Origin: a virus | Direction: 5' to 3' (one strand) | IMG/VR virus record: IMGVR_UViG_3300030116_002663 | Location: 1 to 26,039 of that record | Length of the DNA: 26,039 bases | Shown here: piece by piece, positions 3,178-14,709 of the stretch | How the letters are laid out: each line of letters starts with the position of its first letter | Numbering within the stretch: position 1 is the first letter of the stretch | Notes under the pieces: generated by a model | The model's input: the letters and a program-made list of their open reading frames with translations, nothing else | Databases searched by the model: none | Told to the model about the DNA's origin: nothing | Translations under genes and position numbers: made by a program

Positions 3178-3339
3178 TTATCTACCCGGAAATAAAGCTC
3201 TTTCTAACATATCGCAAAGGCGATTATCAACATTATTATCTGATTTATTGACCATAGCCCGTACTATATCAAGTGCGAGTTTTTTTATTGCTTTCCCACG
3301 AAGGAAGGCAAAAAGAATAGGCTCAATTACTTTTAGCAT
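3178..3339 (-). CDS. Small hypothetical protein, probable amphipathic/membrane-associated
   Basis: A 53-residue product from the ATG at 3339; a TTG at 3375 would add 12 residues (SYYKSSNII...). The sequence has a hydrophobic N-terminal helix (MLKVIEPILFAFLRGKAIKK), then LALDIVRAMVNKSDNNVDNR, and ends ALFPGR. The layout resembles short cyanophage proteins that I remember as conserved but unnamed, often near lysis or tail accessory genes. The stop is 1 nt from the end of the opposing lysine-rich micro-gene. No ribosome site is clear for either start. Confidence 0.55.
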   Translation of the reverse strand: MLKVIEPILFAFLRGKAIKKLALDIVRAMVNKSDNNVDNRLCDMLERALFPGR

Positions 3340-3392
3340 TGTAATTATTATATTGCTAGATTTATAGTAGCTCAATCCTCATACTTAGAGCT

Positions 3393-3428
3393 ATAGCCTC
3401 TTCTTCTGGTCATAACGGAAGAGGCTAT
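3393..3428. repeat. 11-bp perfect inverted repeat (hairpin)
   Basis: ATAGCCTCTTC (3393-3403) is the exact reverse complement of GAAGAGGCTAT (3418-3428), with a 14-nt loop. The right arm includes the stop codon of the minus-strand gene ending at 3425. On the minus strand no T-run follows, so a classic intrinsic terminator is doubtful; an RNA-processing or transcript-protecting hairpin is an alternative. Confidence 0.7.
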
Positions 3429-3655
3429 CTTCTTGGCTTTATTTCTACAACTGCTAGTTCTACTTCTTTTAAACGATGAAATACCTCTTTCATGTCATCG
3501 TGCATATCATCTATTTTTGTAGTCAATAATTCTATAGCTGTTGTATTTCTCACGAGATCATCTCTTGATTGCCTACCCCGATAAGATATTGACCCTACAG
3601 ATACAAAACAAGCTGTCAATAATGCCCCACCTACTGCTGCGACTACCTCTACCAC
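3425..3655 (-). CDS. Small membrane protein with C-terminal coiled coil (holin-like candidate)
   Basis: I chose the GTG at 3655 (76 residues) because a GAGG lies 9 nt upstream and the product then begins directly with a membrane helix. A TTG at 3670 or one at 3730 would extend it, the latter running far into the divergent gene. Residues about 1-24 (MVEVVAAVGGALLTACFVSV) form one transmembrane helix. The rest (RDDLVRNTTAIELLTTKIDD, then MKEVFHRLKEVELAVVEI) is a heptad-patterned coiled coil. One TM plus coiled coil recalls small holin or lysis-accessory proteins, but no family motif proves it. Confidence 0.55.
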   Translation of the reverse strand: MVEVVAAVGGALLTACFVSVGSISYRGRQSRDDLVRNTTAIELLTTKIDDMHDDMKEVFHRLKEVELAVVEIKPRR

Positions 3656-3684
3656 TTTACGAGTCCTCAATATATGTCTATTAT
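3656..3684 (+). promoter_or_regulatory. Candidate sigma-70-type promoter for the exported cassette
   Basis: TTTACG (4 of 6 to the -35 consensus) and TATTAT (5 of 6 to the -10) are separated by exactly 17 nt, just at the divergent boundary. Transcription would begin near 3691, which would favour the ATG at 3698 over 3674 for the first gene. AT-richness makes chance matches common. Confidence 0.25.
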
Positions 3685-4123
3685 ACAGAAAAACCCTATG
3701 GAAAAAGAAAAAATCAAAGATATACCACAAAAGAGTAAAGAATTAGAAGATGACAAACCTGACTATCAGGAGAAAATCACCTTTTTAGTTTCGACTATAG
3801 CTCAAGCTTTTATATTAACTTGGTGCTTATTAGTTTTATCTTTAGGGTATGTAAAACTACCAAATAAATTATTTGGAATAGATATACCAGATCAACCAAG
3901 AGTTGATAGTACTTTTGCTGCTGGACTTTTAGGAAATATTTTAGGTGGTCTTGGTATAAGTGTTAATGCTGCACAGGGAGCTAAAAAGAAGAAGAAAGAA
4001 GAAGGAGAAAATGGTAATATCAATAACTCTAGCGGTGGCACTCAAACCATCATAATAAAGCAGCCACTAGAAATTGTCACGACAAAACCTGACGTTATTA
4101 AAGTTGATCCTACAAAAAAATGA
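3674..4123 (+). CDS. Inner-membrane protein, first gene of the exported cassette
   Basis: 149 residues from ATG 3674, or 141 from ATG 3698 (MEKEKIKDIPQ). A charged N-terminal stretch is followed by one clear membrane helix, ITFLVSTIAQAFILTWCLLV, near residues 35-60. Then comes a segment DQPRVDSTFAAGLLGNILGG with a small-residue second hydrophobic stretch, a lysine-rich turn, and a Ser/Gly/Thr-rich C-terminal tail. It overlaps the next gene by ATGA, so it is probably made together with the three secreted proteins and may anchor or organise them. The function is unknown. Confidence 0.65.
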   Translation: MSIIQKNPMEKEKIKDIPQKSKELEDDKPDYQEKITFLVSTIAQAFILTWCLLVLSLGYVKLPNKLFGIDIPDQPRVDSTFAAGLLGNILGGLGISVNAAQGAKKKKKEEGENGNINNSSGGTQTIIIKQPLEIVTTKPDVIKVDPTKK

Positions 4124-4620
4124 AAAAACTACTTCCATTTATTTTTGCACTATCAGCAGTATCTCCAACCTATGCAGATCTTTCTCATAGTATTACTAGC
4201 TCTACAAAGTTAACAGTAGGCGGTGCAAGTACTACTGCTGATCGTATAGGATCTAGCTACTCTATTAGCGGTACAGGAGTTGATACAACACATGGCTCTG
4301 GTGATAATGCTGTAGCTAATGGAGTTGGCGCACTTGTAATTAGTAGCGGTGTAGGTACACCTCCTGATCTTACCGTTACCCAAGACGTACCTGCTAATAG
4401 TTTTAGTTTTAGTCAATCATTTACCCAAGCAGATGCAATTGCGGGGTCAGCAGTAACAACAGGTGCAGCCCCTAATTTTTCTGACATAACTTCTATAGCT
4501 GGAGGAACTGCTGGAAATTTAGCTGGAACAATTACTTCTGCTGGGGCAGTTACACTTACTGCTGGAGGACATAATACTGAAGCACTTGGTCAAATAACCT
4601 CTACATTAATAGTTGATTAA
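4120..4620 (+). CDS. Secreted beta-rich protein A
   Basis: 166 residues with a textbook Sec signal peptide: KK, a hydrophobic core (LLPFIFALSAVS), and a likely cleavage after PTYA (residue 19). The mature part has almost no charged residues and is rich in Ser, Thr, Gly, Ala and Val (TKLTVGGASTTADRIGSSYS, SFSFSQSFTQADAIAG, AGNLAGTITSAGAVTLTAGG), a composition typical of beta-structured surface or periplasmic proteins. There is no enzyme motif or lipobox. I recall similar proteins in marine cyanophages, always unnamed. It is the first of three consecutive exported products. Confidence 0.7.
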   Translation: MKKLLPFIFALSAVSPTYADLSHSITSSTKLTVGGASTTADRIGSSYSISGTGVDTTHGSGDNAVANGVGALVISSGVGTPPDLTVTQDVPANSFSFSQSFTQADAIAGSAVTTGAAPNFSDITSIAGGTAGNLAGTITSAGAVTLTAGGHNTEALGQITSTLIVD

Positions 4621-4628
4621 CTAAAGCT

Positions 4629-5057
4629 ATGTATAGGTATGCCATTTTGCTAAGTCTTTTTAGCGCACCTGTATATGCTCAAAGTGTTATTCCTAATTTC
4701 AATCAAGGTGTGCTTACTCAAAGATCAGAAACCAAGAGTACTGTAGTGGAGGACATAAAAAGTTTTGATATACGCAATGGTTATCAACTGACAGTAGGTG
4801 GTGAAAATGTAAAAAGCTCTACTGGTAATGTAGCTCCTGATGGGTGGACAAAATTAGATACAACGATACAAGGCACAGGAACCACTTATGTATCCCCTAA
4901 TTTAGATAACAAACCTACTTTTAGTATTGTGAACGAGGGCGAGAGTTTTCAATATTATGAAACGTTAGAATCTCCCGGTATCACTAACTATACCCATATT
5001 CTTAGAACTACCCAAATAGAAAATATTACTGATACAACAAGTACCTTTAGTCAATGA
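4629..5057 (+). CDS. Secreted protein B
   Basis: 142 residues. The signal peptide is MYRYAILLSLFSAPVYA, with probable cleavage after residue 17. The mature part begins QSVIPNFNQGVLTQRSE and is Thr/Ser/Asn rich, probably beta. A segment YQLTVGGENV echoes KLTVGGA in the preceding protein. It ends in TDTTSTFSQ. The stop overlaps the ATG of the next gene (ATGA). No cysteine, lipobox or enzyme motif is present. It is probably periplasmic or virion-associated; function unknown. Confidence 0.7.
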   Translation: MYRYAILLSLFSAPVYAQSVIPNFNQGVLTQRSETKSTVVEDIKSFDIRNGYQLTVGGENVKSSTGNVAPDGWTKLDTTIQGTGTTYVSPNLDNKPTFSIVNEGESFQYYETLESPGITNYTHILRTTQIENITDTTSTFSQ

Positions 5058-5707
5058 AGAAATATTTATGTTTACTCTTTTTGATTAATAATCCTGTCTT
5101 TGCAAATTCTGTGAATACGACTTCAAATAGTAGTGGTAGCGTTGTTAATCAAGCTGTACAGGTAGTACCCTCTAGGAATTTTAATTACCAGATGAACACT
5201 ATTCAATGTCAGGGCGCAACTTTAAATATTTCGCCATTTGTGTCTACAACTTATGGATTTGCCACTCCCTACGAGGAAACATTTGATAGACCAGTATATT
5301 CAAGGCGTGATACTGAAGGTGATTTTGATGATGAGAATGAGCCTATAGGTGATGGAGATGTAGACGTTGGTTATAGAGGTGAAATATTGTATTTTGAAAA
5401 AGTTAGAACTGGACAAAAACAATCTAATGTATCTATAAATGGAGGTATTACTGCGACATTTAGTATTCCATTAGATCGGGAACCTATAAGGCAATGTCGT
5501 GAGGCAATGAAGAAACAAAACGAATTATATGAAGCTTCACTAGCAGCGAAACGATTAAATTTTGAAATGAGTAGAGCAAAAACTTGTGTAGATAATTATA
5601 AGAATGGAATTAGGTTTAAGGAAGGCACACCAATGGCAAAATTATGCGAAGACGTAGAAATGTTGGAGTTTGAGTCCCATACACATAAAATTGAGAAAAA
5701 ACCATAA
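5054..5707 (+). CDS. Secreted protein C, helical C-terminal half
   Basis: 217 residues. The signal peptide MKKYLCLLFLINNPVFA is followed by a Ser/Asn-rich mature start. An acidic loop (DTEGDFDDENEPIGDGDVDV) lies around residues 90-112; then comes a beta stretch and a helical lysine/glutamate-rich C-terminal third (QCREAMKKQNELYEASLAAK). Four mature cysteines (in TIQCQ, RQCRE, KTCVD and KLCED) could form disulfides once exported. It starts inside the stop of the previous gene. It is the last gene before the convergent terminator. No family is recognised with confidence. Confidence 0.7.
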   Translation: MKKYLCLLFLINNPVFANSVNTTSNSSGSVVNQAVQVVPSRNFNYQMNTIQCQGATLNISPFVSTTYGFATPYEETFDRPVYSRRDTEGDFDDENEPIGDGDVDVGYRGEILYFEKVRTGQKQSNVSINGGITATFSIPLDREPIRQCREAMKKQNELYEASLAAKRLNFEMSRAKTCVDNYKNGIRFKEGTPMAKLCEDVEMLEFESHTHKIEKKP

Positions 5708-5711
5708 AAAT

Positions 5712-5738
5712 GCCCCTTCAGAATCGCCTGTAAGGGGC
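5712..5738 (-). terminator. Convergent intrinsic terminator (hairpin 5712-5738)
   Basis: GCCCCTT (5712-5718) pairs perfectly with AAGGGGC (5732-5738) across a 13-nt loop. On the minus strand the stem is followed by ATTTTTAT, a good U-run, so it should end the long late operon whose last gene stops at 5761. On the plus strand the stem follows the secreted gene C but has only a poor T-run (TTGT), so termination that way is weaker. It sits between two converging transcription units. Confidence 0.75.
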
Positions 5739-5760: not shown

Positions 5761-6450
5761 TTATACCTTGTTAATTTTGCTTTTCATAGGTTTTTTGCCA
5801 GAAAACTTTGTACCCTTCTTGCCTATAGCTTTTTTGATTTTACCTATAACTTGCTTAAATAAAGGTTTTAGTACTCTATTAAGAATAGGTGTAAGTGTTG
5901 CAGCCGTAGTTGCTACTACTGTTATGGCAAATGTTGTAGATACTGTATTAAGACTTGGAAGATATTTTTCAACTGCTGTTGTAGCTTCATATTGAACAAC
6001 ACATTCTTTAGTCTCTTCTATATATTTAAACCCAACAACTTTTTCTGTTCCTTTTGCATTTAAATCTCCTATTCTTGGATTATTTTTTTTTGGATCTGGA
6101 CATGGTGGCTCTGTGTCTACTTTAGGCACTTCTGGTTCTTTCGTATCTGTTTTTGGTGGGGAGGTATTAGTTGGAGGTTTTTGTTCTTCTACAAGAAGAA
6201 TTTTCTTTTTGTCATATTGCAATGGTACATAATATGGCAAAGGACATACTAATTTATTCCCATTTGGATCATCTACAAATAACTGACTATTTTTTGTTCC
6301 ATCATTTCTTAAAGTTACGCAAGGCATTGTTAATGCCGGTGGGAGAGTTTTAGTTATATGAGGTGTACTAGGTAATGATTGTTCTACAGGAATATTTATT
6401 ATTGGTATGCGTGGTATTGCTGTATTAGGTATTTGATTAATCGTAGGCAT
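5761..6450 (-). CDS. Proline-rich protein with C-terminal membrane segment
   Basis: 229 residues. The N-terminal 40 residues are dense in Pro and Ile (MPTINQIPNTAIPRIPIINI). A middle domain holds Cys44, Cys69, Cys117 and Cys150 around a Pro/Lys/Glu/Thr-rich linker (about 90-125). A hydrophobic stretch at about 171-190 (FAITVVATTAATLTPIL) could cross a membrane, and the last 40 residues are strongly basic. I recall proteins starting this way beside cyanophage fibre genes, unnamed. It is the last gene of the minus-strand operon, 22 nt before the terminator hairpin, and overlaps the zinc-ribbon gene by 14 nt. Confidence 0.65.
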   Translation of the reverse strand: MPTINQIPNTAIPRIPIINIPVEQSLPSTPHITKTLPPALTMPCVTLRNDGTKNSQLFVDDPNGNKLVCPLPYYVPLQYDKKKILLVEEQKPPTNTSPPKTDTKEPEVPKVDTEPPCPDPKKNNPRIGDLNAKGTEKVVGFKYIEETKECVVQYEATTAVEKYLPSLNTVSTTFAITVVATTAATLTPILNRVLKPLFKQVIGKIKKAIGKKGTKFSGKKPMKSKINKV

Positions 6451-6586
6451 CTCTTCGTTGATATACTTCTACAAAAGCAAAGCATTTTGGGCAAGATAAA
6501 TTTGTGACCATACAATACTGCGTGTCTTCTTCAGTATCGTGATCGCCACCCCAGATTAATTCAGTTTTACAATGCCAACAATTCAT
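6437..6586 (-). CDS. 49-residue double CxxC zinc-ribbon protein
   Basis: The product starts MNCWHCKTELIWGGDHDTEE and contains Cys3-x2-Cys6 and Cys32-x2-Cys35 (SCPKCFAFVEV), with an extra Cys25. Two CxxC knuckles 25 residues apart make a zinc ribbon. The MNCWHCKTELIWGGDHD start is one I remember from many marine cyanophage genomes, always as a short unnamed gene. The ATG shares its A with the stop of the upstream gene (TAATG), and the 3' end overlaps the proline-rich gene by 14 nt. Roles in nucleic-acid or protein binding are possible; none is shown. Confidence 0.75.
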   Translation of the reverse strand: MNCWHCKTELIWGGDHDTEEDTQYCMVTNLSCPKCFAFVEVYQRRDAYD

Positions 6587-6816
6587 TAAAATTTTGGAAG
6601 TTTAGTAGTTGGCAATGATGGGCCTGTCATTTTTGGAAGAGCATCATCAAGAGCTTTAGGCATCATGTCTCCAACGCCTCCAAGAACTTTATCCATCATT
6701 TTCTTTTGAAAATTTTCTGATGTTACATACTTATATGTAAAGAATCCACCGCCTAAAATGCCTAGCACTAAAACAGCAGATAAAATTGAGAGATAATTAC
6801 AAATTTTTTGAAACAT
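6586..6816 (-). CDS. Single-pass membrane protein with proline-rich tail
   Basis: 76 residues. The N-terminal helix (ICNYLSILSAVLVLGILGGG, about residues 5-28) is a clear membrane segment. It is followed by a soluble amphipathic part (KYVTSENFQKKMMDKVLGGV) and a Pro/Thr/Lys-rich tail ending TTKLPKF. I recall close look-alikes in cyanophages directly beside the zinc-ribbon gene, which supports a conserved pair. It could be a lysis or envelope-interaction factor; the sequence alone does not say. The stop overlaps the next ATG by one base. Confidence 0.65.
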   Translation of the reverse strand: MFQKICNYLSILSAVLVLGILGGGFFTYKYVTSENFQKKMMDKVLGGVGDMMPKALDDALPKMTGPSLPTTKLPKF

Positions 6817-6922
6817 GAAAATATTATCAATGTCTACAACAATTATAACTCTGACAATAATTCTTGCATTAGCACCACTTTATGTGACTTTAGGCGTAAT
6901 GCTTAGAACGCAACGCCCGTAG
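6815..6922 (+). CDS. Possible 35-residue single-TM micro-protein
   Basis: A plus-strand frame (ATG at 6815, or 6830 for 30 residues) giving MKILSMSTTIITLTIILALA, then PLYVTLGVMLRTQRP and TAG. It is one hydrophobic helix with a basic C-terminal end, like many real micro-membrane proteins. It fills the 86-nt gap between two minus-strand genes and overlaps the 3' end of the next one by 20 nt. There is no ribosome site. Its strand is opposite to all neighbours, which lowers confidence; chance hydrophobic frames are common in AT-rich DNA. Confidence 0.35.
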   Translation: MKILSMSTTIITLTIILALAPLYVTLGVMLRTQRP

Positions 6923-7238
6923 CTTGTACTGGTGTATTTATAAGATCAATCTCTGCTTTTAATCCAGCTTCTAATGCAGTAACAGCATCTGCTCCTAGTG
7001 CATCTTTAACCCAAGTTATCATGGTTGCACTGTCTGGAGTCTTTTTAGATTCGTCAAAAGCAATAAATCCAGAAGGTAGTGACTCAGGTTTAACGAAGGT
7101 TATTTCACCTGTGCGTCTTGCCTTTTCTTCTGTGCCGTCCATTCCTTTTACTCGATAGACAACATTAGTAAAGTAACCATCAGCAACATCTCTTTTACAA
7201 GCAGTGCCGTTGATTTCCCATGTGTAAGTGATAGCCAT
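6903..7238 (-). CDS. Small late protein, hypothetical
   Basis: 111 residues, starting MAITYTWEINGTACKRDVAD. The first 60 residues look like a beta-sandwich (TNVVYRVKGMDGTEE, GEITFVKP), followed by a helical C-terminal part (MITWVKDALGADAVTALEAG). The pattern resembles a conserved small protein found near tail and fibre genes in marine myo- and siphophages, which I cannot name securely. It lies in the late operon after the fibre, so a virion-accessory role is plausible. Confidence 0.65.
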   Translation of the reverse strand: MAITYTWEINGTACKRDVADGYFTNVVYRVKGMDGTEEKARRTGEITFVKPESLPSGFIAFDESKKTPDSATMITWVKDALGADAVTALEAGLKAEIDLINTPVQATGVAF

Positions 7239-7539: not shown

Positions 7540-10500
7540 TTATGCTGCCTCTAATGCTGCAACTTTAGCTGATAATTCTTTTACCGCTTCAACTAAGACA
7601 CCAATTAAACCGCTATATTGTAAAGATTTTTTGCCTTCAAAACCATGTACAAGTTCTGGTAATACTTTTTCTACATCCTGTGCTATGACACCCATAGAAG
7701 CTTGAGAGTTTAAATTATATTTATATCCTGTAATTTGTTTTATTTTTTCAAGTGCATTATTTAATGGCTCAATATTAGATTTTAAAGCTATATCAGAAGT
7801 TTCAGTTACTGTACCTGTAACAGTCACTCCCGAAGAGGTTGTTTCTAGTTTTTTCGAGTTGTCATAAAAGAGTTCAACACCACCATTACCGAGACACTGT
7901 ATAGCATCTTCATTGCCTTGAGTTTGAATACGAACATCATCGCCAGCTTGTAAAACCAAGTCATCTGTATCACCATCAATATATAAATTTCCTGTTCCAC
8001 TATGTGTTATATAAGAATTTGACCCATCATGGCGAATCTGTAAATCCACATTATCGCCAAACATCAACTTACGACTATCAGGGACAAATATATTTGAAGC
8101 ATCTGTAAATGACATGACTTCATTACCACCAGTTGTTATCTTTAAATAATCAGCCTGTGGATGACTAATATGGGTATTGCTATCCCCTGCAAAAGTTACA
8201 TTGCCACTTACCTCAACTCCAGCACTTGTAGACTCAAACTTTTTACTCCCATCGTAATATAACTCTACATTCCCATCTTTATTAGCAAAAAACATATATT
8301 CACTACCATCATTAGGTGTCATTCCAAGCTGATCTGATCGTATTTGCAGTTGACCTGTGCCATTAACAATGAAACTATTCGATCCATTGTGATAAATTTC
8401 TAGATCATTTGAGTTTCCGAATATAGCTTTATCGTTATCTCCCATATGAGAGCCATCTGAATTGACTTGACCTGTAACTGATATACCAGCACTGAATGTT
8501 GCCAGCTTTTGACTATTGTCATAGTAGAGTTCTACGCCCCCATTACCAAGAACATTTATACCATTTTCTCCTCCTTGAGGTCTTAATCTAATGTCATCAG
8601 CAGCAGTGATAGTTATGTCATCTGAAGTATCGGTAATTTTCAAATCTCCAGTTGAATTAGTAATGATACTATCTGTTCCATCGTGATAAATTTGTAAATC
8701 ATCACCAGCACCAAAAGTCATTTTAGTGTCATCACCAGCATGAAAACCTAGATTTCCGCTTGTAGGATTTGCTGTTATATAACCTGTAACTAAAACTCCA
8801 TAACTTTTTGTCTCTAACTTAGTCGCATTATTATACTCTAATCTTACACCAGTAGTTCCATCAATATTAAGTAATCCTGTAGCATTTATATGGCTTGCAG
8901 CACCAGCAGCGTGATAAATTTGTAAGTCATCATCTTGTCCAAGACGTAATTTGCCACTATCCGCTATATAAATATTATTCCACCTACCCATGTTTTGACC
9001 TATGTCAAAAGTTTCATGACTAGACGGCATAATAGATTTTGAATATACACCTATTGATGCAGTCTCAAATTTCTTATCGTTGTCATAATAGAGTTCAACG
9101 GCTCCATTAGGTCTTACATAAACTCCAGCTTCGTCATTATTTGGTGCTATAAAAATACCGCCAGCAGAATTTATGTATAAATCTCCTGTATTATTATCAA
9201 TCAGACTGTTTGTTGAGTCATGATAAATTTTTAAATCAGTTCCTGACCCAAACCTAGCCTCAATATTATCAGCGAGTTCAAGTACACCTAAGTTATATAA
9301 ACTTCGACTTGAGTTAAGAACTGTAGTTCCATTTATAGTTAATTCATTAGTATCTACACTACCAGTTGCATCAAAGTTTCCAGTAACTCGCGCACCCCAA
9401 CTTATAGTCTCAAACTTTTTCGAGTTATTGTAATAAAGTTCAACTGAGCTTTCTGGAGTAAATAATGCTTGTGTATGATTTGCATTTCCATCTGTAACTC
9501 TTACTAATCCAGCTAATCTAAGTTCCCCTGTCCCATTATCTTTTACATAGCTGTGCGAGCCGTCATGATATAGCTCTAAATCTTGAGATGCACCAAGTTG
9601 AAGCTTTCCTGAATCGTTTGCTATCTGTACATTTCCAGACGAATTTATACGCATGCGTTCTGTTACGGCATTACCAGTTGCCTGAGTCTTAAATACTAAT
9701 GCAGCGTTATCAGTAGCACCATCTCCAACAGCCGTAATTCTAGCTAAATCAGAATCTATATTATTATTACCAAAATTTATAGATCCTATATCTGAGCTAC
9801 CACTACCAAAATTACGAACTATATGTATAACAGGGTCGGTATCTTGTAACGCTAAAGTAGTTGCAGGGCTACTTACATTTATTCCTAATTTACCAGTAAC
9901 ATTAGCTCCCGAAGAGGTCGTTTCTAGTTTCTTCGAGTGGTCATAAAAAAGTTCTACTGCTCCATTTTGTAAAAAAGCAGCTATAAATTCAGAATTATCT
10001 TCATTATTAATAAAAACTCCGCCACCACCTGATATTTTTAATACACCAGTTCCTGTCTCAGAAATAAACGAATTTGATCCATCATGATAAATTTCTAGAT
10101 CTCCACCATCTCCAAATTTTAATTTACCATTATCTTCTATATAAATATTTCCAGCAGCAGCAGAACCCTCTGTACCGTCCATTTGAATATAACCAGTAAC
10201 AGTAATCCCTCCACTATGTGTATTTAGCTTCTTCGAGTGATCGTAGTACAGTTCTACGGCTCCGTCCTCAACTGCATAAAGCATGGTTTCAGTAATAGCA
10301 GCATTTGTAATTTGAACTGCACTACCAGCAAGTTTTAAACGTCCTGTTCCCTCATCTGCAATGTAAGAGTGATTCCCATCATGCCAGATTTGAAGATCCG
10401 CACTAGCACCAAAAATTATTCTATTATTCCCTCCCGCCGAACTATCTGTAAAAGTTATATTATTAGTAGGATTAATTCCTCCAGTAACATTTATATCTCC

Positions 10501-13500
10501 AGTAACATCAATACCACCGTTTGCATCTACGTTATGGTCAAATACTATGCTACCAGCAGACTCATTATCACTGAAGCGTAAGTTAGCACCATGTCCATAA
10601 ATATCCCATCTCCCTGTACCAGCACCGCCGTACATTCTGACATACTTTCCAGAGTTAGAACTATTACCAACAAGTTGACCACTTGCATTTAATGTACCTG
10701 TAACATCAACACCTGTTGAAGTTATTGTTAATCTATCGTTAAATGAACCATCATAATTCTGTAGCTTTAACCCAGCACCACCATCTTCTACTAATAATCT
10801 ATACAAATCATTATTGTCATCTCCCTGATCGGCTTTTAGACGAATTTGAGCAGCACCGCCTTCAATACCATCAACATTAATACCTTGTTGAACTGTTATG
10901 CCATCGGCTGTTGTCTCTAGCTTCTTCGAGTTGTCATAATATAAACGAACAGCATTGTCAGGTTGAAATGTTGCTAATGGTTCATTGCTTGCATATTTGT
11001 AAAATCCATTATTAGCAGTACCAGCAACTCTAATATATAAACCACCTGTACCAGTTTCATCTATATAGGAATTTGATCCATCATGATATAACTGTAAATC
11101 TTGACTAGCACCGAGTTGTAGTTTTGCATTGTCGTTTGCTATCTGGACATTGCCATCTTCTAAAATTTTAAATAGCTCAGTTCCACTGCCACTATTACCG
11201 TTTTTATAAAATGCAAAATATCTATTTGTATCATCATTATCTGAATCAATATTAAACGTCATTACTTCAAATGAGTTTAAATGACCAGATGCGGTATCAG
11301 CAGCACCTAGTGTTAACTGCCCTCCACTAATAGTTGCATCACCTGTAACCGATACGCCAGTTGAGGTTGTCTCTAACTTTTTACTATTGTCGAAGTAAAG
11401 TTCTACTTCTGCATTTGCATCACAAACAATATAATTTTCATTTGCCTGTGATCTTAATGCAATATCGTTACCGTGTATAAATAAGAAACCAGTGGAATTT
11501 TGTATATAAGAAGATGACCCAGAATGATAAATTTGTAAATCTTGACTAGCACCAAGTTGTAATCTTCCACTGTCTGGTATTTGTATGTTGCCATCAGAGG
11601 TAATGCGTAAACGTTCTACAGGGTCAGAACCTGTTGCAGTACTAAATACTAAACGTGCTGGCACTGTGTTATTACTTACAGAACCATCTACTAAAGCTGA
11701 AATACTTGCTGCGTGATTTGTTAAATCATTTCCATCAGCACCACTAAAACGTATTTCTCCTAAATTATCATTATCTGCCACTGCGTCATTATCGCCAACA
11801 GCAGATCCTCTTGTTCTTCCAAAGTTTAATTTAGGTGAAGAACCAGCAGCAGCAGCACTATTTCTTGTTATGGATAAAGATGTTGAAACTGCTGTTCCTT
11901 CTATTTGTTGTGCTGCTGTAACATTAGCAATGGCTCTTGAAGAAGTATGTCCTAAAAGTAAGTTGCCATCAATATTAACTCCAGTTGAAGTTGTCTCTAG
12001 TTTTTTACTGTTATCGTAATAAAGTTCTACATTATCATTAGCATTACATCCAATAAATTTTTCAGCAGAAGTTAAGCCTAGTATTAATTGAGTATCACTT
12101 GCAAGCTTAAAAACACCAGTTCCATGATGAAAAATATAACTATGATTTCCTCCTGTTGCATCATGTCTTATTCTTAAATCATTACCATCTCCAACATATA
12201 TATAGTTATCGTCTGGTATAGACAGATTGTCAGTAATATCTACTCCAGTTGAAGTTGTCTCAATCTTTTTACTGTTGTCGTAAAATGCTTCAAATGCACC
12301 GTCAGGAGTAAGTCTTATACCTTGCTCACCATTTTTGGCGGTTATTTTTATTTGATTTGTGCCATCACCAATTATATGTATAATCCCATTACTACTTGTA
12401 ATGTAATTATGAGACCCATCATGATATAGCTCTAAATCTTGTGAAGCACCTAGTCTTATTTTTCCTGTGTCATTTGGAATTTGTATATTGCCAAATGTAT
12501 TAGTTCCGCTTGCAGTAGTTTGAAATACTAAGCCACTATTATAAACATTAATTCCATTAGAAGTTGTCTCTAATTTTTTACTGTTATCGAAATATAATTC
12601 TGTTTTTCCATCAGCAATAAATTTTGCTAAATTTTCGCCACCTGTTTTTCCAAGAATTATTTGATTATCAGTTTGTATATATAAAGAACCAGTGCCAGTT
12701 TCTTGAATCTTAGAATCACTACCACTATGAAAAATTGTTAAATCCTGAGAATCTCCTAGTTGTAACTTCTTATTATCAGGTAATGCAATATGCTCACTAC
12801 TTGTCCAGCTATCTGTAGCATCTAACCACTGAAACGTCTTATCTGTCGCACCCTTTAATGTAATACCACCACCATCAGCAGTAGTATCGGTAGGAGTTGA
12901 TACCTTGCCTAGTTCAATATTTTTATCTTCAACTGTAAGTGTAGTCGTATCAATCGTTGTGGTCGTTCCATTAACAGTGAAGTTACCTGTTACAGTTAAA
13001 TCATTAGTAATGGTAACTAAACCAGAAGAATTTATAGTTAGTCTATTAGCATCATTAGTTGTGTCTTTAATATTAAAATCTCCATTACCGTTCTTTATCT
13101 GATAGTCACTGTCATTATTAGTATCGGTAAGATTTATTATTGGAGTTGCACTAGATATTGTTAAATCTCCAGTTAACGTACCACCAGCAAGCGGTAATTT
13201 GTTTGTTATCGCAGTATTAGAAGCATTAATAGCATTAGCTTCAATGCCATCAAGTTTTGTCTTAAGAGTATTTGTAAAATTGTTTTGTGTTAAACCACCA
13301 TCTCCAACAGTTAATTTGTTGGTTAAGTCTGTATATGAAATATCTATATTTGCACTACCATCAAAACTCGCCCCTGCTATCGTTCTTGCTGTTGCTAAAA
13401 CTGTCGCTGATGCTGCGTTTCCTGTAATTCCATCACTTGCAGTAATAAATCCAGCACCATTTGTTAACTGGTTTGTATTAGTTACATTAGTTGCTCCTAC

Positions 13501-14709
13501 TGCAACTCCATCTAATTTAGTTTTCAGTGTATCCGTAAAGTTATTCTGTGTTAATCCACCGTCACCTACAGTTAACTTGTTTGTTAAGTTTGCGTAGGAA
13601 ATATCAATATTGGCAGAACCATCAAAACTAACACCAGCAATAGTTCTTGCAGTGGTTAGTGTGGCAGCAGATCCAGTAGTATTCTGGTTAAGTGTCGGTA
13701 CTCTTGCCGAAGCGATCTGACCTGATGCTATATTCGCAGCATTTATATTAGTTATACTCGCACCATTACCACTAAAAGAAGCACCACTAACAGCATTAGC
13801 ACTGACATTTCCAGTAGAAGTTATATTCTGCGATCCAAAATCAGGTGAGATCTTTGTACCAGCTATTGCAGCACTTCCACTTATCTGTGAATTAGTAAGG
13901 CCATCACTATTTAAAAGAGTCTTAATGTCACTTGCTGTTTGATCTGCGGTTGCATTGCTCTCAATTCCGTCTAATTTTGTACCATCAGTAGCTAAGTTAC
14001 GACCATCTACTGTTCCTGTTACTGTGATATTTCCTGTAACATCAAGTCCAGACCCAACATCTAAGTTTCCAGCAACATCAACTCTTCCAGAAGAATTTAT
14101 ACTTAACCTATTAGCGTTATTGGTTACGTCTTTAATATTAAAGTCCCCGTTACCATTTTTAATTTGATAATCGCTGTCATTATTACTATCAGTAAGATTT
14201 ATTATTGGAGTTGCACTGGTTATAGTCAGATCACCAGTTGCTGTTATATCGCCTGTTACATCAATACCAGCATCTTTGACCCTTAATCTTTCTGCACTAC
14301 CTGTTGCCAAACGAATAGTTGTAGCTCTAATACCAAAATCTGTATTAGCGTTCTCAGCGTCATTTACTGCTTGAAAACCTGTAACACTTCCTATTTCCCC
14401 AATATTTCCAGCAAAACGAATATTTTTATTAGTTCCAGCACTTAATAAAAGTCCACTTGCTAATTTATCAGAGTTAACTGCATCATCAGCTATTTTTGTA
14501 GTATTAATAGCTCCAGCATCTATGGTCGCTACCGTTCCACCGTCACTAATAATTATGTCGCCTATATCACCATCAGCAAAAGCTGGGCCTTGTGGCCCTT
14601 CTGTCGCTACCGTTACAACTGTTGCTTGGCCTTCTTGGATAGTAACAGTATTAGTAGTTTCATTTACTGAAATTGTATTTTTTGTCTCAGTAACAGTAAC
14701 AGTGTTCAT
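7540..14709 (-). CDS. Giant tail fibre with about 13 repeat modules and S74 intramolecular chaperone
   Basis: 2389 residues. The N terminus is Thr/Val-rich (MNTVTVTETKNTISVNETTN) with a GPQGP turn. Residues about 150-600 hold two near-identical blocks around TPIINLTDSNNDSDYQIKNG and a tandem pair around ARTIAGVSFDGSANIDISY. From about 650 to 2290 a module repeats about 13 times: a strand such as GASQDLQIYHDGSNSYI, then VELYYDNSKKLETTSTGV. The last 85 residues, from Ser2305, match the peptidase S74 chaperone (SDIALKSNIEPL, GVIAQDVEKVLPELV). By analogy with endosialidase, Ser2305 and Lys2310 would make the dyad that cuts the chaperone off after trimer folding. It starts inside the stop of the upstream gene. 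It should be the main host-recognition fibre. Confidence 0.9.
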   Translation of the reverse strand: MNTVTVTETKNTISVNETTNTVTIQEGQATVVTVATEGPQGPAFADGDIGDIIISDGGTVATIDAGAINTTKIADDAVNSDKLASGLLLSAGTNKNIRFAGNIGEIGSVTGFQAVNDAENANTDFGIRATTIRLATGSAERLRVKDAGIDVTGDITATGDLTITSATPIINLTDSNNDSDYQIKNGNGDFNIKDVTNNANRLSINSSGRVDVAGNLDVGSGLDVTGNITVTGTVDGRNLATDGTKLDGIESNATADQTASDIKTLLNSDGLTNSQISGSAAIAGTKISPDFGSQNITSTGNVSANAVSGASFSGNGASITNINAANIASGQIASARVPTLNQNTTGSAATLTTARTIAGVSFDGSANIDISYANLTNKLTVGDGGLTQNNFTDTLKTKLDGVAVGATNVTNTNQLTNGAGFITASDGITGNAASATVLATARTIAGASFDGSANIDISYTDLTNKLTVGDGGLTQNNFTNTLKTKLDGIEANAINASNTAITNKLPLAGGTLTGDLTISSATPIINLTDTNNDSDYQIKNGNGDFNIKDTTNDANRLTINSSGLVTITNDLTVTGNFTVNGTTTTIDTTTLTVEDKNIELGKVSTPTDTTADGGGITLKGATDKTFQWLDATDSWTSSEHIALPDNKKLQLGDSQDLTIFHSGSDSKIQETGTGSLYIQTDNQIILGKTGGENLAKFIADGKTELYFDNSKKLETTSNGINVYNSGLVFQTTASGTNTFGNIQIPNDTGKIRLGASQDLELYHDGSHNYITSSNGIIHIIGDGTNQIKITAKNGEQGIRLTPDGAFEAFYDNSKKIETTSTGVDITDNLSIPDDNYIYVGDGNDLRIRHDATGGNHSYIFHHGTGVFKLASDTQLILGLTSAEKFIGCNANDNVELYYDNSKKLETTSTGVNIDGNLLLGHTSSRAIANVTAAQQIEGTAVSTSLSITRNSAAAAGSSPKLNFGRTRGSAVGDNDAVADNDNLGEIRFSGADGNDLTNHAASISALVDGSVSNNTVPARLVFSTATGSDPVERLRITSDGNIQIPDSGRLQLGASQDLQIYHSGSSSYIQNSTGFLFIHGNDIALRSQANENYIVCDANAEVELYFDNSKKLETTSTGVSVTGDATISGGQLTLGAADTASGHLNSFEVMTFNIDSDNDDTNRYFAFYKNGNSGSGTELFKILEDGNVQIANDNAKLQLGASQDLQLYHDGSNSYIDETGTGGLYIRVAGTANNGFYKYASNEPLATFQPDNAVRLYYDNSKKLETTADGITVQQGINVDGIEGGAAQIRLKADQGDDNNDLYRLLVEDGGAGLKLQNYDGSFNDRLTITSTGVDVTGTLNASGQLVGNSSNSGKYVRMYGGAGTGRWDIYGHGANLRFSDNESAGSIVFDHNVDANGGIDVTGDINVTGGINPTNNITFTDSSAGGNNRIIFGASADLQIWHDGNHSYIADEGTGRLKLAGSAVQITNAAITETMLYAVEDGAVELYYDHSKKLNTHSGGITVTGYIQMDGTEGSAAAGNIYIEDNGKLKFGDGGDLEIYHDGSNSFISETGTGVLKISGGGGVFINNEDNSEFIAAFLQNGAVELFYDHSKKLETTSSGANVTGKLGINVSSPATTLALQDTDPVIHIVRNFGSGSSDIGSINFGNNNIDSDLARITAVGDGATDNAALVFKTQATGNAVTERMRINSSGNVQIANDSGKLQLGASQDLELYHDGSHSYVKDNGTGELRLAGLVRVTDGNANHTQALFTPESSVELYYNNSKKFETISWGARVTGNFDATGSVDTNELTINGTTVLNSSRSLYNLGVLELADNIEARFGSGTDLKIYHDSTNSLIDNNTGDLYINSAGGIFIAPNNDEAGVYVRPNGAVELYYDNDKKFETASIGVYSKSIMPSSHETFDIGQNMGRWNNIYIADSGKLRLGQDDDLQIYHAAGAASHINATGLLNIDGTTGVRLEYNNATKLETKSYGVLVTGYITANPTSGNLGFHAGDDTKMTFGAGDDLQIYHDGTDSIITNSTGDLKITDTSDDITITAADDIRLRPQGGENGINVLGNGGVELYYDNSQKLATFSAGISVTGQVNSDGSHMGDNDKAIFGNSNDLEIYHNGSNSFIVNGTGQLQIRSDQLGMTPNDGSEYMFFANKDGNVELYYDGSKKFESTSAGVEVSGNVTFAGDSNTHISHPQADYLKITTGGNEVMSFTDASNIFVPDSRKLMFGDNVDLQIRHDGSNSYITHSGTGNLYIDGDTDDLVLQAGDDVRIQTQGNEDAIQCLGNGGVELFYDNSKKLETTSSGVTVTGTVTETSDIALKSNIEPLNNALEKIKQITGYKYNLNSQASMGVIAQDVEKVLPELVHGFEGKKSLQYSGLIGVLVEAVKELSAKVAALEAA
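7830..12600 (-). repeat. About 13 degenerate fibre modules encoded in tandem
   Basis: Each module of roughly 60-170 codons pairs a DLxIYHDGS strand with a VELYYDNSKKLETTS strand. I counted 13 of each by reading the protein. Copies are diverged (YFDNSKK, FYDHSKK, EYNNATK and others), so recombination-driven expansion with later drift is likely. Boundaries are approximate. Confidence 0.8.
13010..14230 (-). repeat. Duplicated ~160-bp block flanking the tandem pair
   Basis: Two copies (about 13010-13170 and 14065-14230) encode the same block: TSATPIINLTDSNNDSDYQI / NGNGDFNIKDVTNNANRLSI and a near match. The two copies lie about 1.05 kb apart in direct orientation. Confidence 0.7.
13246..13657 (-). 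repeat. Tandem pair of ~150-bp repeats in the fibre gene
   Basis: Two units (about 13246-13396 and 13508-13657) encode near-identical peptides running from ARTIAG through FDGSANIDISY and LTNKLTVGDGGLTQNNFT to LKTKLDG. They are separated by a segment containing TNQLTNGAGFITASDGITGN. Confidence 0.75.

Follow-up and report, generated by a model that had tools for sequence, protein, structure and literature searches.

A large share of the main photosynthetic cells of the ocean falls victim to marine cyanophages, and the route by which they break the outer membrane of these cells is an open question. The closest described systems are two-component spanins, such as lambda Rz/Rz1 and T7 gp18.5/18.7, and class II (two-TM) holins, such as T7 gp17.5. 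In the T7 gene order, holin 17.5 and spanins 18.5/18.7 are flanked by the tail fibre gene and the terminase genes. A published list of phages without a recognised spanin includes P-SSP7, P-HM1, P-SSM2, P-SSM7, Syn9, S-SM1 and others; 20 of the 91 such phages infect Prochlorococcus or Synechococcus, and the same work suggested that a type I N-out/C-in membrane protein together with an outer-membrane protein could replace spanins (PMC6139136). For T4-like cyanophages, Sullivan et al., 2010 (PMC3037559), in the parts of that paper drawn on here, reported a cluster of five hypothetical genes (T4-GCs 218, 219, 234, 235 and 237), often found with a 'plasmid stability' protein and present in all T4-like cyanophages but S-PM2, and proposed a functional link among them. 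Those parts treat the cassette as one of cyanomyoviruses only and make no mention of export, convergent layout, a late promoter or occurrence in siphoviruses or podoviruses, and neither function nor export of the products is given in the portions of the literature found on the T4-like version.

The window analysed here, a 26,039-nucleotide stretch of viral DNA (IMG/VR record IMGVR_UViG_3300030116_002663, positions 1 to 26,039), carries a related gene set in a different phage type. Its plus strand encodes X (3674-4123; a start at 3698 is also possible), A (4120-4620), B (4629-5057) and C (5054-5707), joined by 4-nt ATGA overlaps at X/A and B/C and by an 8-nt gap at A/B, exactly as a preliminary description of 3674-5707 as a four-gene unit had it. 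Convergent with C, on the minus strand, follow D (5761-6450) and E (6586-6816) and then the tail operon, giving the layout X>A>B>C> <D<E. On the left side, also on the minus strand, lie H (3425-3655, with a probable GTG start at 3655), the divergent neighbour of X, which has a TM segment and a coiled coil (phrog_26178), and F (3178-3375), a small hydrophobic/amphipathic protein (phrog_2738/402); both are probably further partners of the module. The unit first described is thus a real conserved set, but a larger one, with D, E and probably H and F, and one that is found in several phage types. The convergent terminator assigned to it earlier needs correction as well. A hairpin at 5712-5738 (dG -16.4, z -4.6) lies between C and D and is better described as shared by both operons, and because its U-run is on the minus-strand side it fits a terminator of D/E better than one of X-A-B-C; a terminator scan of the window did not have it among its listed terminators.

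All three proteins A, B and C begin with a Sec signal peptide by a simple rule, with cleavage after TYA, VYA and VFA, respectively, while none of the 19 other window genes was positive, in agreement with the preliminary description. The same rule was satisfied by 59 of 86 relatives of A, 48 of 67 of C and 20 of 67 of B, to be read against a pass rate of 3-5% for shuffled N-termini and with the B starts in relatives being uncertain. Cleavage precedes the residues D, Q and N with no Cys at +1, and a lipobox is absent in A, B and C. The small protein X, previously taken for a one-TM protein, has two hydrophobic segments (residues 37-55 and 79-97) followed by a K-rich C-terminus; since the annotation of gp43, the homolog in P-SSP7, likewise has two TM regions, X is a TM hairpin. 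The TM segment is C-terminal in the Pro-rich protein D, which ends in a cationic tail and is predicted to be N-out/C-in; it is N-terminal instead in the small protein E and in H. Profile HMM searches placed A in phrog_564 (E 1.4e-50), B in phrog_650 (2.9e-34), C in phrog_848 (9.5e-54; also phrog_1755), D in phrog_570 (7.9e-38), E in phrog_568 (3.7e-15) and X in phrog_2714/phrog_721 (1.2e-11), and the Pfam cut-off was exceeded by DUF6322 for B and DUF6450 for X. We found no support for the 'plasmid stability' label on the E family, E being a short single-TM protein. Searches of Pfam, PHROGs and NCBIfam matched no module member to a family of holins or spanins; the best spanin match of H had E 0.21, and its charge pattern is ambiguous.

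The beta-rich, Ser/Thr/Gly-rich protein A and the likewise beta-rich B are paralogs, as the profiles of their mature parts match each other at E about 1e-5, compared to never below 0.75 for reversed and shuffled profiles. In mature C all four Cys are invariant across 84 sequences, which strengthens the disulfides suggested earlier. Structure prediction of single chains, as the preliminary description had proposed, yielded an extended model for B (pLDDT 85, pTM 0.49) with two strands of ~24 residues (26-49 and 117-141) and, for C (pLDDT 72), a model of strands plus a 42-residue helix, but no significant match to a solved structure. Foldseek and VIA-align comparisons of the B and C models returned weak matches only, to collar proteins, PA/lysenin pores and TolC; in direct comparison with the pore and outer-membrane factors (PA, lysenin, TolC) Z was at most 2.8 for B and 3.2 for C, and A and C profiles found no match among sequences of solved structures. 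The long strands of B show no membrane-type alternation (p 0.4-0.7), for which reason a membrane barrel was dropped for B; such alternation is present in one strand of C (p 0.004). The database label 'OMP1 protein' is likewise unsupported, as AlphaFold shows no closed barrel for B, the paralog of A. Going by these models, the long strands and low pTM point to one component of an assembly.

Relatives of these genes are widespread. Searches by tblastn gave 411 phage records for A, 414 for B and 426 for C, all named as Synechococcus, Prochlorococcus, Cyanophage, 'Marine' or uncultured, so that A, B or C occurs in more than 400 phage records, virtually all of them cyanophages, among siphoviruses, T4-like myoviruses and podoviruses; a DNA search of the whole window against phages gave no match. 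Among IMG/VR loci the order A>B>C is kept in 181 of 197, X lies directly upstream of A in 127 of 150, D is convergent and next in 146 of the 155 with room for it, and the 3' ends of C and D overlap in 97 of 146. The ATGA overlaps also persist across related loci (X/A, 146 of 152; B/C, 137 of 149), and +8 is the most frequent A/B gap. This conservation of gene set and order excludes a chance origin of the cassette. In four loci all six genes share a strand, in the order E>D>X>A>B>C, indicating that D and E travel with the X-A-B-C unit. The module is therefore a conserved membrane/exported protein set of most marine cyanophages of three tail types, which bears out the earlier expectation of a conserved set of unassigned function in these phages.

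The arrangement varies with phage type. In T4-like Kyanoviridae it is A>B>C> <D, followed further on by E and X, and in the podovirus MedDCM-OCT-S37-C6 (Oinezvirus) X>A>B>C> <D<E. The T7-like P-SSP7, S-RIP1, NATL1A-7 and S-TIP37 lack A and carry D>X>B>C, all on the same strand, with the tail fibre gene on one side and the terminase genes on the other. A gene of a type related to H borders the module in S-RIP1 and stands at the corresponding position in Syn5, and F is found there in several T7-like cyanophages; Syn5, which shares host strain WH8109 with S-TIP37, has only H and F at that place, without X and A-D. As for the T4-like version, the gene tags of P-SSM7 equate A with T4-GC237, C with T4-GC235, D with T4-GC234 and X with T4-GC218 and put T4-GC713 at the position of E, and HMM order in three loci (L001, L003 and L206) shows the same T4-GCs clustered. 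The set is thus indeed unnamed and conserved, but its T4-like version is the cassette of Sullivan et al., 2010, which in the parts considered does not count B; what is added here relative to that work is the export of the products and the spread to other tail types.

The tail genes of the window are of the lambda-like siphovirus type, and, with one single-cell marine virus record set aside, its tail protein gpI is most similar to those of the Prochlorococcus siphovirus isolates MED4-117, MED4-184 and P-HS2. The window phage is a cyanosiphovirus, and its own host, judged from sequence, is presumably similar. MED4-117 (38.8 kb, 63 genes, Prochlorococcus host) carries X>A>B>C> <D<E at the same place, flanked by the J tail-fibre side and by the recombination genes. 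Outside its tail genes, the only membrane or exported gene products we found in MED4-117 are those of X-A-B-C-D-E, a weak 81-aa protein and a hydrophobic stretch in the terminase; the same scan of a sister genome of ~50 kb (L262, L263, L066) gave F and H in addition to X and A-E, as well as a single possible ORF of 47 aa in another part of the genome. A lysing phage needs at least one membrane-acting protein, and since hardly any others are present, the membrane step of MED4-117 lysis most likely resides in the module.

Late expression is suggested by promoter-like motifs. The motif [CT][TA]AAATA occurs upstream of A, mostly ~34 nt away, in 13 of 17 distinct T4-like upstream sequences, against a mean of 3.4 and a maximum of 8 in shuffles, an enrichment that is partly post hoc as the motif was chosen after viewing those sequences; strict ATAAATA was not enriched (3 of 28). 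Both NATAAATA, the reported late promoter of cyanomyoviruses, and CTAAATA, that of Aeh1, are late motifs in T4-like phages.

We consider the best-supported reading, with a probability of about 0.45, to be that X-A-B-C with D-E constitutes a late-expressed cell-envelope exit (lysis) module of cyanophages. In such a scenario, X, a TM hairpin with a charged tail, would open or prime the inner membrane in a holin-like manner; A, B and C, exported by Sec, would come together in the periplasm or else at the outer membrane, where the disulfide-braced helix of C would serve as a periplasmic arm; D, if its C-terminal TM segment is oriented N-out/C-in as predicted, and E would anchor the complex in the inner membrane; and A-E with X would jointly reach across to the outer membrane and rupture it, a spanin task that would here need no lipoprotein. 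Like the two-component spanins, the module appears late and envelope-targeted and takes the same genome place in T7-like phages, and spanins are absent as recognisable genes exactly where it is common. It differs from them in lacking a lipoprotein and, in its core, a recognisable i-spanin with an N-terminal TM; in their stead it has three exported proteins that are soluble and a membrane protein anchored by its C-terminus. D and the exported A-C agree with the spanin substitute suggested in PMC6139136, which is agreement, not proof. X resembles class II holins in being short, with two TM segments and a charged C-terminus, and in its corresponding place in T7-like cyanophages, making it a holin candidate; unlike them it has no sequence relation to the holin families of the databases searched, which are too diverse for this to exclude the role. 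The conserved ATGA overlaps and the four one-strand loci support a single unit, and in the freshwater phage DSL-LC03 the module adjoins two annotated endolysins.

Several findings speak against an exit module: the lack of a holin or spanin family match and of a lipobox in A-C, a mechanism to which no structure match corresponds, the lack of a recognised endolysin in the window's relatives (among the families and proteins tested), and the presence of C relatives, and in freshwater Synechococcaceae of the A-B-C set plus a relative of D, on the chromosomes of cells not undergoing lysis. Nor would it be the sole lysis route, because Syn5 and S-PM2 lyse cells without the cassette. Of the three roles suggested originally, virion release is nevertheless best supported, by late-gene position, late-promoter-like motifs and elimination. 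A tentative extension, rather doubtful as yet, is that a non-lipoprotein system for outer-membrane disruption, which combines a hairpin resembling a holin with three proteins exported by Sec and an inner-membrane protein anchored at its C-terminus and which derives partly from a host exported-protein family, replaces spanins in most marine cyanophages, be they myo-, sipho- or podoviruses. The module offers a concrete, testable candidate for outer-membrane breakage in more than 400 sequenced phage records, T7-like isolates included, and connects a family of phage genes with an uncharacterised Synechococcus operon for exported proteins.

That operon bears on the reading ranked next. On marine Synechococcus chromosomes, A'-B'-C' encode exported proteins in A-B-C order, namely a beta-rich pair A' and B' that are paralogs of each other, as A and B are, followed by a homolog of C (97% probability, E 3.6e-11), C being homologous to chromosomal proteins of picocyanobacteria. 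The operon (L259:5977-8035, L260:7084-9163, L261:4541-6366, L248:4811-6604) differs from the module in that no X, D or E was found adjoining and in an additional large Ser/Ala-rich exported protein, with which it looks like an undescribed surface structure. It keeps alive the idea, somewhat unlikely in our view, that X, D and E anchor a fibre, coat or plug built of A-B-C at the outer membrane or cell surface, with C derived from a host operon, and that this structure alters the infected-cell surface, for example by blocking superinfection or jamming a host appendage. Tests for homology of A'/B' to phage A/B detected none, which weakens this link. In a genome scan, three freshwater Synechococcaceae genomes proved to carry A-B-C chromosomally, beside ndh genes and an NAD kinase, and their B groups with that of phage DSL-LC03 (support 97/87), as expected for a domesticated protective module, long branches and composition leaving the direction open. 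The patchy distribution similarly suggests an accessory role. Late-promoter-like motifs and late-gene position, however, fit exclusion poorly, and the membrane step of MED4-117 lysis would have hardly any candidate left.

It is less probable still that only X (or H/F) is lytic and that A-C are exported accessories, such as a nutrient porin or an envelope-stress factor, travelling along. T7-like phages without A show parts to be dispensable, in P-SSM7 the phosphate-uptake genes (pstS) are near the module, and further host-like genes are present in T4-like cyanophages; yet the strict order, the X-A and B-C translational coupling and the tight D link in three phage types speak for one machine, late expression would come too late for nutrient gain, and no porin-like fold was among the structure matches of B or C. 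We regard as very improbable that A-C are virion (tail) accessory proteins. Sec signal peptides would export them from the cytoplasm, where virions assemble, and X, D and E are membrane proteins. Table 2 of PMC3037559, as far as that source was used, has a single detected virion protein among genes present in 15 of 16 T4-like cyanophages, so that at most one of the five cassette genes would be virion-borne. This has to be set against the adjacency of the module to tail fibre genes in siphoviruses, T7-likes, the Oinezvirus podovirus and S-SSM7 and the weak shape matches of B to phage collar proteins.

A few further observations concern the surroundings of the module. In T4-like phages the tail-to-tail overlap of C and D extends up to more than 200 nt (L003:8656-8750, L001:9787-10007 and similar), the two C-termini being encoded on both strands, and an antisense effect is possible. 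In DSL-LC03 (L205:5525-11755) a 549-aa autotransporter-like outer-membrane protein lies beside the module along with the endolysins. In the freshwater Synechococcaceae (L217, L218, L219; L242-L244), A-B-C stand beside ndhI/G/E, and the D relative is seen in two, where the contig reaches far enough, all three contigs ending shortly after the module. A protein with an effector-associated domain (EAD9), whose usual setting is bacterial conflict systems, is encoded in MED4-117 (L264:20141-20539). In the window, a phrog_7802 (DUF7936) gene at 6903-7238 lies between the tail fibre and the module, and in S-RIP1 directly upstream of the module; the tail fibre itself (7540-14709; 2389 aa) has many similar repeats and a C-terminus that, by eye, resembles an intramolecular chaperone domain.
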